Source: Anaerolineales bacterium | GTDB lineage: Bacteria > Chloroflexota > Anaerolineae > Anaerolineales > Villigracilaceae | DNA: 12,783 nt | Reading direction: 5' to 3' | Assembly (NCBI GenBank): GCA_028689195.1 | Contig: JAQTWR010000035.1 | Location: 1 to 12,783 of the forward strand | Part shown: positions 9,221 to 12,304 of the stretch, one piece after another | Layout: the number at the start of each line of letters is the position of its first letter | Numbering within the stretch: position 1 is the stretch's first letter | Notes under the pieces: generated by a model | What the model was told of the DNA's origin: nothing | The model's input: only the letters and a program-made list of their open reading frames with translations | Databases searched by the model: none | Program-made: the position numbers and the translations under genes

Positions 9221-9730
9221 ATGTTCAAACGCAACTCCGCTCCCAACGAAACCGCTCCAGCCATACAAGCCGTCGAGCGCATTACTTCTGTGCTTGGTTC
9301 GGGCGTCATCTGGCATGGAAGCGTCAACGGTTCGGGCGGCGTGCGTATCGAAGGCGCGTTTGAAGGCGAGATCGCCTTGCGCGGGACGCTGGTCATCGGC
9401 GAAACGGGGCGCGTAACCTGCCAGAACGTGCGCGCGAATACGGTCATTGTGGCGGGCGCGGTGCGCGGAAATATCACCACGCAGAAGTTGGAAATCCGCG
9501 CGACAGGGCGCGTATGGGGGGACGTAGTCACTACCGCGTTTGTCACCGAAGAGGGCGCGTTTCTGCGCGGTCAAATCCGCATGGAAGAGACGGTCGAGTT
9601 AGACCTCGAGCCGACCCCTGAAACGACCCCGTCCGAAGCGGCGCAAGCGGAATCTATCGCAGCTGCGCCGATTGCGCCGCCAGACCAGACCATTGTGGCG
9701 GATAAAAAAAAGAAAAAGGCTGACGCGTAG
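9221..9730 (+). CDS. Bactofilin (DUF583 family cytoskeletal protein)
   Basis: This is a 169-residue protein. Residues about 20-130 form the bactofilin beta-helix, seen as regularly spaced Gly and aliphatic residues: 'GSGVIWHGSVNGSGGVRIEG', AFEGEIALRGTLVIGETG, VIVAGAVRGNITTQKLEI and GRVWGDVVTTAFVTEEG. Bactofilins polymerise without nucleotide into filaments at the inner membrane face, where they organise cell shape, septa or envelope enzymes. The tail is disordered, rich in Pro, Ala and Glu, and ends in a lysine cluster (DKKKKKADA) that could contact membrane or polymer partners. The N-terminus is short and polar, with no membrane helix. The next gene starts immediately after the stop codon (TAG ATG), so the two are cotranscribed. 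The -10 box 7 bases upstream suggests a leaderless mRNA. Confidence 0.92.
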   Translation: MFKRNSAPNETAPAIQAVERITSVLGSGVIWHGSVNGSGGVRIEGAFEGEIALRGTLVIGETGRVTCQNVRANTVIVAGAVRGNITTQKLEIRATGRVWGDVVTTAFVTEEGAFLRGQIRMEETVELDLEPTPETTPSEAAQAESIAAAPIAPPDQTIVADKKKKKADA

Positions 9731-10924
9731 ATGAATCCGCAAGCCGCCATGAAATACCGCGAACTCGATATTCAAACTCAACGCGACTTTCCCTCGAACA
9801 TGCGGACGCATGGATTCGGCTGGCTTGTGCGCGCGGGGTATATCACGCGCGAGAGCGGGGTTTTGCCGCTGGGGGAGCGAACGCCAAAACAAATTCATCC
9901 ATCCATTCCCGTCATCGCTAACGAATGCGAAACCTACTTTCCCATTTCAACAGGTTCGATTGAAATCATCCATTGCCCCGCGTGCAAATACGCCGAGCGC
10001 AAAGAACTCGCGCGGTTCAAGAAATCTCCCTTTTCGCAGGAAGAACCGCTGCCTCTCGAAAAAGTCCTCACGCCCGATTGCGGCACGATTGAATCGCTTG
10101 CAAATTTTTTGAATATCCCCAAAGAAAAAACCGCCAAAGCGTTGATGTACGTCCGCGTCGCGGATAACCGTTTTGTTTTCGTCGTCGCGCGCGGTGATAT
10201 GACCCTGAGCGAAGCAAAACTCAAAAGCGCGGTTGGCGAAACCCGCCTGGCGATGGCGGATGAAATCGCTAACGCGGGCGCGGCGGCGGGATACGCTTCG
10301 CCGATTGGCTTGAAGGACGCGCTGATTATCGCGGATGATTTGATTCCGCAGTCGGCGAATCTCGCGGCGGGCGCAAACGAATCGGGCTATCATTTCAAGA
10401 ATACAAATTACGGGCGCGATTATTCCGCCGAAATCATTGCGGATCTTGTCCAGGCGAAGGCGGGCGACGCCTGCGTCAATTGCGGCGGCGCGCTTGAATC
10501 TACCGCCGCGATTCTTCTTTCCACGCCTTCCGAATTCTATTTTGAGAACATGCTGCTCGCGCTTGCCGAAACGCATCACGACGAAAAAGGACTGACGTTT
10601 CCCAAATCCGCCGCGCCGTTCGACGTGTATCTTATGCACGTCCCCGGCAAGGAAATAGATACGCGCGCCAAAGCGGATGAGATTTGCGAAGCGTTTCAAC
10701 GCGCGGGGATTCGCGTCTTATTCGACGACCGCGACGAGCGGGCGGGAGTCAAATTCAACGACGCGGATTTAATCGGCTGCCCCGCGCGCGTGACCGTAGG
10801 GGAACGCGGCTTGAAGGAAAATAAAGTGGAAGTGAAAACGCGCAAAGGCGGCGAAAGCTTCAGCGTTGAAGTTGGGAATATCATCGAGGCGATAGAAGAT
10901 TTGCTCGACAATATGACCCCGTAA
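9731..10924 (+). CDS. Prolyl-tRNA synthetase paralogue with editing and anticodon domains but no intact catalytic core
   Basis: This 397-residue protein compares with about 570 for bacterial ProRS. Residues 7 to about 53 match the ProRS N-terminus ('LVRAGYI...LPLGERTPKQI'). The stretch that should hold class II motifs 1 and 2 (about 140 residues) is absent. The match resumes at TGSIEIIHCPACKYAE (Cys82, Cys85). Residues about 105-235 form the INS/YbaK-like editing domain. Lys136 in EKTAKAL corresponds to the key Lys279 of E. coli ProRS, and GYASPIGL supplies the GxxxP-type loop. CVNCGG (Cys248, Cys251) follows. The motif 3 region (GCYGIGVTR in normal enzymes) is replaced by unrelated sequence (about 255-278), so the ATP-binding Arg is missing. 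Residues 295-397 form the anticodon-binding domain. It should not form prolyl-adenylate. It probably hydrolyses mischarged Ala-tRNA(Pro) in trans. The reading frame is intact, so simple decay is unlikely. Start at 9731 abuts the bactofilin stop; Met7 (9749) is an alternative. Confidence 0.8.
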   Translation: MNPQAAMKYRELDIQTQRDFPSNMRTHGFGWLVRAGYITRESGVLPLGERTPKQIHPSIPVIANECETYFPISTGSIEIIHCPACKYAERKELARFKKSPFSQEEPLPLEKVLTPDCGTIESLANFLNIPKEKTAKALMYVRVADNRFVFVVARGDMTLSEAKLKSAVGETRLAMADEIANAGAAAGYASPIGLKDALIIADDLIPQSANLAAGANESGYHFKNTNYGRDYSAEIIADLVQAKAGDACVNCGGALESTAAILLSTPSEFYFENMLLALAETHHDEKGLTFPKSAAPFDVYLMHVPGKEIDTRAKADEICEAFQRAGIRVLFDDRDERAGVKFNDADLIGCPARVTVGERGLKENKVEVKTRKGGESFSVEVGNIIEAIEDLLDNMTP

Positions 10925-10935: not shown

Positions 10936-10964
10936 TTGCGAAAAAACTTGCCTTCGCATAAAAT
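10936..10964 (+). promoter_or_regulatory. Leaderless promoter of the acyltransferase pair
   Basis: TTGCGA (10936-10941) and TAAAAT (10959-10964) have exactly 17 bases between them. The -10 box ends 7 bases before the ATG at 10972. This is the best complete example in the window of a promoter placing transcription start at the start codon. Confidence 0.6.
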
Positions 10965-10971
10965 TCAGAAT

Positions 10972-11646
10972 ATGAAAAAATTTTTGCGCTGGCTTATTCA
11001 TTTTGTCATTGATTCGATTGCAAATGTGGAAAGGCGCGGTTACGAAAACTTCCCCGTAACGGGCGGATTTGTCATCGCGGTAAATCATCTCGGTTTTCTG
11101 GACGTTCCGCTGGCTTTATATTCGCTCGAAAAATGGGACATCTTTATCATGGTCGCGGAGAAATGGGAGAAATTTTTCCTGTGGCGCTGGCTGGGCAAAC
11201 AGTTCGATTTTGTGTTTGTAGACCGCTATAACCCCGATTTGAAAGCGCTGCGAAATATGATGCGCCGTATGGAAAATGGGCAAACGCTGGTTGTCGCGCC
11301 CGAAGGCACTCGCGCGCGCGACGAAAAAATGGCGCGGGGAAAACCCGGCGTGGCGTATCTCGCGTCTAAAATGGGATGGCAAATCGTTCCCGTCGCCATC
11401 AGCGGCTCGGAAGATAGAATCCTGCTCGGCAACCTCAAACGCTTTCGGCGCACGCACATCAGCCTGACGGCTGATAAAGCCTTTACGCTGCCGCCCTTTC
11501 CAAAAGAAAACCGCGAAGAAATTTTGCAGGAATACACCGACGAGATCATGTGCCACATCGGCGTGATGCTGCCCGAAAGAAATCTTGGCTACTACGCAAA
11601 TCATCCCCGCTTGAAAGAATTATCGAAAGAGAAAAATGAAATATAA
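10972..11646 (+). CDS. 1-acylglycerol-3-phosphate acyltransferase-like protein (PlsC/LPLAT family), copy 1
   Basis: This 224-residue acyltransferase is predicted to act at the membrane in phospholipid synthesis, moving an acyl group to lysophosphatidate or a related acceptor. Motif I is NHLGFLD (His39, Asp44; the HX4D catalytic pair). Motif III is PEGTR (Glu111 to Arg114). VAISGSED near residue 145 matches the last family block. There is no strong transmembrane helix, but the N-terminal segment (residues 4-17) is amphipathic or hydrophobic. The start at 10972 is preferred because of the promoter spacing; a TTG in frame at 10936 lies inside the -35 box. The gene overlaps copy 2 by 11 bases. 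The two proteins have motifs at identical residue numbers, so they arose by tandem duplication. The acceptor could also be a glycolipid or an ornithine lipid. Confidence 0.88.
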   Translation: MKKFLRWLIHFVIDSIANVERRGYENFPVTGGFVIAVNHLGFLDVPLALYSLEKWDIFIMVAEKWEKFFLWRWLGKQFDFVFVDRYNPDLKALRNMMRRMENGQTLVVAPEGTRARDEKMARGKPGVAYLASKMGWQIVPVAISGSEDRILLGNLKRFRRTHISLTADKAFTLPPFPKENREEILQEYTDEIMCHIGVMLPERNLGYYANHPRLKELSKEKNEI

Positions 11647-12304
11647 AACCTTGCGCTCGATTGTCCGTTTTGTGATGAATATTATCGCCGATGTGGAAGT
11701 GGTCGGCATGGATAAACTGCCCGAAGGCAGCGCCATGATTGCCGCGAATCATTTGGGTCGGTTGGATACGGCTGTGCTTTTATACCTGATTGACCGCGAA
11801 GACATTATCATGGCGGTCGCCGAAAAGTATAAAGACCATCCGCTGTTTGGCGCAATCGGCAAAGCGGTGGACGCTATCTGGCTCAATCGCTTCGATGTGG
11901 ATTACGCGGCGCTGCGCGAAATTCTAGCGCGGATGAAGAAAGGCGGATTGATGGTCATTGCGCCCGAAGGAACGCGCTCCAAAACGGAGGCGCTGCAAGA
12001 AGCCAAAATGGGAGCCGCCTTCCTCGCCAGCAAAAGCGGATATCCCATCCTGCCCGTCGCGTTGATTGGCACGGAAGACCGCGGCATTGTCGCCAACATG
12101 AAGCGTTTTCGCAAATCGAAAATCAAAGTAGTGGCGGGCGAACTGATGACGATTGAAATTCCTCACGGCAAGGGGCGCGAGGAAGCGCTGAAGCAAGCCA
12201 CCGACGAACTCATGTGCCGCATTGCGGCGAATCTCCCTGAGAAATATCGCGGCGTGTATGCCGAACATCCGCGATTGAAAGCGATGTTGGGGGAAATCCG
12301 CTAA
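11636..12304 (+). CDS. 1-acylglycerol-3-phosphate acyltransferase-like protein (PlsC/LPLAT family), copy 2
   Basis: This 222-residue paralogue of the preceding protein has NHLGRLD (His39, Asp44) and PEGTRS (Glu111 to Arg114) at the same positions as copy 1. Both copies end with a related Tyr-Ala-x-His-Pro-Arg-Leu-Lys motif. The differences in motif I (Gly-Arg-Leu against Gly-Phe-Leu) and in the acceptor region (copy 2 has AVDAIWLNRF where copy 1 has QFDFVFVDRY) suggest different acceptor or acyl preference. The start codon lies inside the end of copy 1, with only a weak purine stretch (GAAAGAGAAAA) upstream, so translation is probably coupled. Its stop overlaps the stop of the convergent SulP gene (shared CTAA). 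Confidence 0.88.
   Translation: MKYKTLRSIVRFVMNIIADVEVVGMDKLPEGSAMIAANHLGRLDTAVLLYLIDREDIIMAVAEKYKDHPLFGAIGKAVDAIWLNRFDVDYAALREILARMKKGGLMVIAPEGTRSKTEALQEAKMGAAFLASKSGYPILPVALIGTEDRGIVANMKRFRKSKIKVVAGELMTIEIPHGKGREEALKQATDELMCRIAANLPEKYRGVYAEHPRLKAMLGEIR

Follow-up and report, generated by a model that had tools for sequence, protein, structure and literature searches.

A core-deleted prolyl-tRNA synthetase of Chloroflexota as a proposed trans-editing factor for tRNA(Pro)

A synthetase reduced to proofreading is known from archaea, where ThrRS-ed (NCBIfam NF011500), a Ser-tRNA(Thr) hydrolase, works beside a second ThrRS without editing. ThrRS-ed is described as a truncated synthetase that lacks the catalytic site and keeps the editing and anticodon-binding domains (PMC9976931, PMC11295145). 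For proline, bacterial INS domains are reported to act on Ala-tRNA(Pro) (PMC3973320, PMC11295145), and in INS editing by Escherichia coli prolyl-tRNA synthetase (ProRS), whose INS domain is the best studied, the anticodon-binding domain reads G35/G36 and the acceptor stem is not read, as described in PMC3973320. The same source names ProXp-ala, which reads the acceptor stem, as the protein responsible for editing in many species with an INS-less ProRS, and describes YbaK as having no tRNA specificity of its own. A preliminary description of the locus studied here had stated that known trans-editing proteins lack an anticodon domain; this holds for YbaK and ProXp-ala but fails outside the ProRS world, where ThrRS-ed has one. 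Given the ThrRS-ed precedent, an editor with its own anticodon domain is therefore not new in principle, and only a version built from ProRS and INS would be new.

The window, by which we mean the whole stretch of DNA that was analysed, comprises 12,783 nucleotides of a contig from an Anaerolineales bacterium and contains the following features:

9221..9730, + strand: bactofilin gene (Pfam PF04519), directly upstream of the truncated ProRS
9731..10924, + strand: core-deleted ProRS of 397 aa, proposed to edit tRNA(Pro) in trans
9740..9901, + strand: remnant of the ProRS N-terminus, residues 4-57, aligned to canonical residues 2-59 (alignment blocks)
9974..9985, + strand: Cys82-x-x-Cys85, first Cys pair, at the INS border (alignment)
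10070..10408, + strand: INS-type editing domain (Pfam tRNA_edit, PF04073)
10136..10138, + strand: codon of Lys136, which occupies the position of the INS catalytic lysine in the alignment
10472..10483, + strand: Cys248-x-x-Cys251, second Cys pair (alignment)
10511..10573, + strand: second deletion border, residues 261-281 (alignment, structure model)
10625..10900, + strand: anticodon-binding domain, HGTP_anticodon, residues 299-390 (Pfam)

The open reading frame at 9731-10924 reads as a bacterial-type ProRS without the class II catalytic core. The preliminary description had recognized a ProRS reduced to its editing and anticodon-binding parts, and the frame of 397 aa, Lys136, the GYASP loop, both Cys pairs and the anticodon-binding domain are indeed all present. 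Residues 4-57 show weak phmmer stretches to 5znj/2j3l, and the main deletion falls right after residue 57, where about canonical residues 60-211, which hold motif 1, the TxE loop and motif 2, are gone in the alignment. At the site of motif 3, a strand and a helix persist in the structure model and the Gly-x-Gly-x-x-Arg residues are substituted, so that the alignment agrees with the earlier statement that motifs 1 and 2 are deleted and motif 3 is replaced. The structure model, proposed earlier as a check, fits bacterial ProRS and matches the INS folds 1wdv and 2cx5. The landmarks of the INS domain are Lys136, the RGD of residues 154-156, the GYASP of residues 187-191 and His221, with Arg229-Asp230 just beyond. 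By numbering match, Lys136 presumably corresponds to Lys279 of E. coli ProRS. The E. coli K279A mutant is reported to be defective in editing (PMC3973320). Fold (PF04073), catalytic lysine and glycine loop place the protein in the INS superfamily, and the additional HGTP_anticodon domain sets it apart from the single-domain, stand-alone INS families. The Cys82-x-x-Cys85 pair may have a role in zinc binding.

Common ancestry, domain order and gene position are shared with bacterial-type ProRS (TIGR00409 / NF006625), as are the INS and anticodon residues and the Cys pairs, which indicates from the sequence that the ancestor of the 397-aa protein was a bacterial-type, INS-containing ProRS. Unlike this parent, the protein lacks the residues of motif 1, the TxE loop, motif 2 and motif 3: the 25 truncated rows compared keep 0-1 of 12 catalytic sites against 11-12 of 12 in canonical rows (n=29), and the window's protein scores below the curated cut-offs (238 versus 558 bits for NF006625; 166.6 versus 306.7 for TIGR00409). 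It would thus be unable to make prolyl-adenylate.

As the preliminary description had supposed, the same genome encodes a second ProRS of the archaeal/eukaryotic type (TIGR00408), split into two pieces, each at a contig end, whose 168-bp overlap contains 3 mismatches. The pieces carry RPTSE (TxE), the motif 2 region and TSWGLSTR (motif 3), and no INS domain was found in them. No full bacterial ProRS was found elsewhere in this genome, which is 82% complete; a 604-aa frame on its contig C138 is probably ThrRS. In a phylum sample of 399 genomes (the own genome included, the others at least 90% complete), the truncated protein occurs in 25 other genomes (E <1e-100), among them G320, whose copy has an in-frame stop. 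All 25 carry the archaeal-type ProRS (E <=1.5e-164) and none has a bacterial ProRS above the cut-off. Likewise, a count by eye shows the archaeal-type enzyme in all 25 genomes with a best bacterial-ProRS match that is weaker than the cut-off (about 1e-91) but reaches E 1e-30, although the copies in two of these genomes, G080 and G173, do not qualify as clean decayed ones; these co-occurrence counts are raw and are weakened by kinship among the genomes. The arrangement known from ThrRS-ed, in which the same tRNA is served by a second synthetase that lacks an editing domain, is therefore present in the own genome and in all 25 other carriers. Three genomes without an archaeal-type ProRS (G137, G247 and G302) have a low-scoring bacterial ProRS just above the cut-off (E 1e-92 to 1e-98), which may represent contig-cut genes or an exception to the pattern.

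The truncated protein belongs to a conserved family. The best 120 of 4369 database relatives, the own one included, are 381-438 aa long and have the same two Pfam domains. Among 49 aligned sequences, K136, R154-G155-D156, K163, H221, D230 and all four cysteines are invariant, and the R334-G349 block of the anticodon domain is mostly so. In a scan of GTDB genome contigs, 48 among the best 80 of 589 loci were of the truncated kind, a few of them cut by contig ends. Orthologues with the same deletion, for which the preliminary description had called, are present in 83 of 105 genomes of the window's family (own included; E <=1e-80, counted by eye). The remaining 22 comprise four with core-decayed copies of 515-566 aa (G417, G419, G420 and G421), 11 with a long form and seven with neither, all seven being in many contigs, so that gaps are possible for some. 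Six of the long forms have intact motifs (G401, G427, G439, G440, G441 and G442); G304 and G328 keep 11/12 catalytic sites and G063 9/12, the copy of G438 is cut by a contig end and that of G437 lies in broken frames. One stop within the matched stretch was recorded in eight carriers (G457, G472, G404, G467, G425, G258, G431 and G320); in a closer reading of two of them, G258 and G320, the copy of G258 turned out to have a full 404-aa frame despite the listed stop. In one lineage the truncated gene is apparently decaying (L064, at G320:C155:16513-17451, and L243); L064 has an in-frame TAG, RSD instead of RGD, changed INS residues and its anticodon part in a separate frame.

The gene order is conserved as well. 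In the window, the stop codon of the bactofilin gene is followed immediately by the ATG of the truncated ProRS, and a same-strand bactofilin frame lies upstream in 43 of 47 truncated loci (L198-L244), often preceded by fabI, a methylpurine-DNA glycosylase and an epimerase. Four loci lack it; the upstream flank is shorter than 160 bases at three of them and about 2 kb long at the fourth, L209. Bactofilin also lies upstream of the full copies L133, L134 and L136 and of the decayed copy L115, which is most simply explained by one gene at different stages; among the other decayed and full copies, most lack it in the flanks examined. At L246, on a 3.2 kb contig that bears the label Herpetosiphon sp., a truncated ProRS is preceded by relatives of the epimerase, glycosylase, fabI and bactofilin. 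This is the gene order of the Anaerolineales loci, and the bin label is probably wrong. Downstream in the window, two overlapping neighbouring genes of the PlsC acyltransferase type (236 and 222 aa) occupy 10936-12304, and no relatives of either were found in the 47 truncated loci searched. The contig end (12767-12779) holds an exact copy of AGATCGGAAGAGC, with 0 expected by chance, which we take to be an Illumina adapter core; the minus-strand reading frame starting MCSSDL there is probably an adapter remnant and no protein.

Both ProRS types occur together in many Chloroflexota, in tandem in some. The two genes are close and on the same strand at L129, L138 and L143 (genome family f33), at L137, L157, L338, L339, L341 and L345 (f1), at L142, and at L247 and L252. 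Besides a full copy on contig C188, G061 has ProRS pieces at C130:5291-7166, where a 464-aa frame matches the bacterial model at positions 1-227 and 404-565. This frame lacks INS and not the core, and it is followed by a further N-terminal piece. Bacterial-type copies were taken from 60 dual genomes (30 of low or middling score, 30 of high score), and 58 of them were compared, at 12 catalytic, 13 INS and 10 anticodon-domain sites, with 25 truncated copies and with 29 canonical ones taken from high-scoring genomes. Canonical rows keep on average 11.97 catalytic, 12.93 INS and 9.86 anticodon sites, and the full-length dual rows (n=30) 11.43, 12.67 and 9.87. The decayed rows (n=28) keep 4.14 catalytic sites (range 0-10) with 12.86 INS and all 10.0 anticodon sites, and the truncated rows 0.28, 12.76 and 9.96, respectively. 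A lysine stands at the Lys136 column in all 112 rows (29/29 canonical, 30/30 dual, 28/28 decayed and 25/25 truncated). These scores rest on 25 of the 26 truncated rows, counting the own one, and on 28 of the 30 low-scoring copies, L120 (G276, contig cut), L114 (G173, in pieces) and L064 (G320) being left out and the G080 sequence being absent; four genomes of genus g229 and more long copies of f1 stand outside the means. As the decayed set was chosen by low model score with a match at E 1e-30 required, copies without any INS would be missed. The full-length dual copies L155 and L157 keep only 9/12 catalytic sites and perhaps represent an early stage of decay.

Decayed copies come from genome families f2, f4, f6, f7, f12, f15, f28 and f61, and genomes with a full-length, high-scoring copy also occur in f1, f2, f6, f28 and f61. 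Genus g75 of f28 is, to judge by its protein, Chloroflexus or very near: the closest database protein to the copy of G109 (96% identity) is from Chloroflexus sp. and is annotated as proline--tRNA ligase. No synthetase core domain was found in that protein, so annotation counts enzymes that probably cannot charge tRNA. In a quick IQ-TREE phylogeny of the INS and anticodon columns (118 rows, 294 columns, SH-aLRT support only, some long branches), the truncated form is one clade (support 99), and its nearest sister is L245, a 520-aa core-decayed copy (support 82) similar to copies in g229 of the window's family. The decayed label changes seven times on this tree, at least five of the changes being forced by starred branches, and these amount to separate losses provided that an active site, once lost, does not return; one common origin of all decayed copies is unsupported by this quick tree.

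Substitution rates follow the same division between core and editing parts. By the Nei-Gojobori method, with pairs that share sequences and some dS near saturation, intact pairs (n=3) show slower evolution ahead of INS (dN/dS 0.02-0.04) than within it (0.12-0.18). This order is reversed in every decayed pair (n=11) and every truncated pair (n=7), the dN of the pre-INS region exceeding that of INS. The dN/dS of INS is 0.07-0.26 over decayed and truncated pairs (0.08-0.18 in the truncated ones), and that of the decayed core is 0.13-0.49. The decayed core is therefore relaxed yet not free and still seems constrained, perhaps being retained as a scaffold. Judged from these rates, purifying selection acts on the 397-aa protein, and the main reason why it is kept appears to be its INS domain together with its anticodon domain.

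We consider it quite likely that the 397-aa product of this gene is a dedicated trans-editing factor, guided by its own anticodon domain, that acts on mischarged tRNA(Pro). This is the function that the preliminary description had proposed, and the conserved orthologues, the INS-less partner ProRS and the structure model all lend it support. The archaeal-type ProRS would charge tRNA(Pro), occasionally with Ala or a similarly small amino acid; the truncated protein would grip the mischarged tRNA(Pro) by anticodon bases G35 and G36, and the tRNA 3' end would be placed in the INS pocket, where the ester would be hydrolysed. Because in E. coli the tRNA specificity of INS comes from the anticodon-binding domain, this scheme would explain why just these two domains were retained: an INS domain freed from ProRS would lose its specificity without the anticodon domain, which is what was kept. 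The own tRNA(Pro) genes with anticodons GGG and CGG have C1:G72, A73 and G35/G36, and no tRNA(Pro) UGG gene was seen among the typed loci (30 loci and C371 of 34 tRNA matches in the own genome). Bacterial-type ProRS copies in several other lineages of Chloroflexota with the archaeal-type enzyme would likewise have lost charging and kept editing, with deletion of the core as the final step in the window's family. As the decay in G320 and the seven family genomes without any form suggest, the protein would be useful or advantageous rather than universally needed.

Both the deacylase activity and its amino acid substrate are predicted here, and the substrate is likely Ala-tRNA(Pro) made by the archaeal-type ProRS. 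The preliminary description had named Ala- or Cys-tRNA(Pro); of these, Ala or a similarly small residue appears the likelier and Cys the less so, since bacterial INS acts on Ala-tRNA(Pro) and a YbaK-like protein is present in the genome. It is unlikely that the protein edits tRNA(Pro) with a main target other than Ala, be it Cys, Ser, 2-aminobutyrate or some non-protein amino acid that the archaeal-type ProRS activates. The INS pocket may differ, as TAKA is found mostly in decayed and truncated copies against mostly TLKA in canonical ones and the pocket-side loop varies, and INS-superfamily proteins are described as varying in amino acid specificity (PMC11295145); on the other hand, the scored INS positions are those of canonical ProRSs and the YbaK-like protein, albeit below its model cut-off, is there for Cys.

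The truncated protein might instead be a subunit of the archaeal-type ProRS that edits in a cis-like manner within a complex and is not a free factor, a reading that we regard as rather improbable. Some full-length bacterial-type copies do adjoin the archaeal-type gene (L137, L157, L129, L138, L143, L142, L247 and L252, and also in G427, G440, G439 and G401), and YbaK is thought to work complexed with ProRS (PMC3973320). However, the neighbour of the truncated gene is bactofilin at 43 of 47 loci, and with its own anticodon domain kept the protein needs no partner for the choice of tRNA. Retired synthetases with new roles, such as HisZ-like proteins, have lost the core and kept a tRNA-binding domain, and a non-enzymatic tRNA(Pro)-binding regulator or chaperone of this sort is conceivable here too. 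It is very unlikely, as the INS residues are retained in full, constraint on INS exceeds that on the core remnant, and the INS lysine, for which a regulator would have no need, is present in all 28 decayed and all 25 truncated rows. Finally, a decaying relic or an assembly artefact, to which the in-frame stop of the G320 copy and the single stops in the matched stretch of eight listed carriers might point, has next to no probability, and the mis-assembled deletion considered in the preliminary description is ruled out, as is a pseudogene, by the same architecture in the best 120 of 4369 relatives and in 83 of 105 family genomes, by the conserved gene order and by the low dN/dS of INS.

Three further single-domain tRNA_edit proteins are encoded in the own genome, and a fourth runs into a contig end, so redundancy with the truncated ProRS is possible. 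One of them is YbaK-like, with a score below the YbaK model cut-off, and two that were searched against the PDB gave no match to ProXp-ala (5vxb). ProXp-ala itself was found in 3 of 399 phylum genomes (E <=1e-15) and in 1 of 26 truncated carriers. A strict replacement of ProXp-ala by the truncated protein is not supported, ProXp-ala being rare in the sample and one carrier having both. In G253, G296 and G336 (f2, g16), all with the archaeal-type ProRS only, no protein with a tRNA_edit domain was found, and these genomes apparently have no INS-type proofreading of tRNA(Pro); on the strength of these three tested genomes we reject the idea that an editor is needed whenever the archaeal-type ProRS is present.

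By analogy, the 397-aa protein appears to work like ThrRS-ed without being a member of it. Both are core-less synthetase paralogues with an editing domain and their own anticodon domain. ThrRS-ed differs in having a ThrRS parent, an unrelated editing fold and an archaeal distribution, against the ProRS parent, INS fold and bacterial hosts found here; unlike ThrRS-ed, the present case also involves several decays in one phylum and an archaeal-type partner. No description of a ProRS-derived protein with INS and anticodon domains was found in searches of the open-licence PMC literature. We think it likely that, in Chloroflexota with an INS-less archaeal-type ProRS, the bacterial ProRS has repeatedly become an editing-only protein, so that charging and proofreading are split between synthetases of two origins. 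Every stage is extant: full-length pairs (tandem in some), core-decayed copies (in Chloroflexus relatives) and the core-deleted form of the window, which would be the first trans-editor of the INS superfamily with a dedicated tRNA-reading domain.

How anticodon recognition reaches the INS site about 70 angstroms away is described as an open question (PMC3973320), and the truncated proteins would be natural minimal enzymes (INS and anticodon domain in 397 aa) for studying this anticodon-to-INS signalling. If our reading is true, they would constitute a ProRS counterpart to ThrRS-ed and an instance of synthetases turning into proofreaders in parallel within a single phylum.
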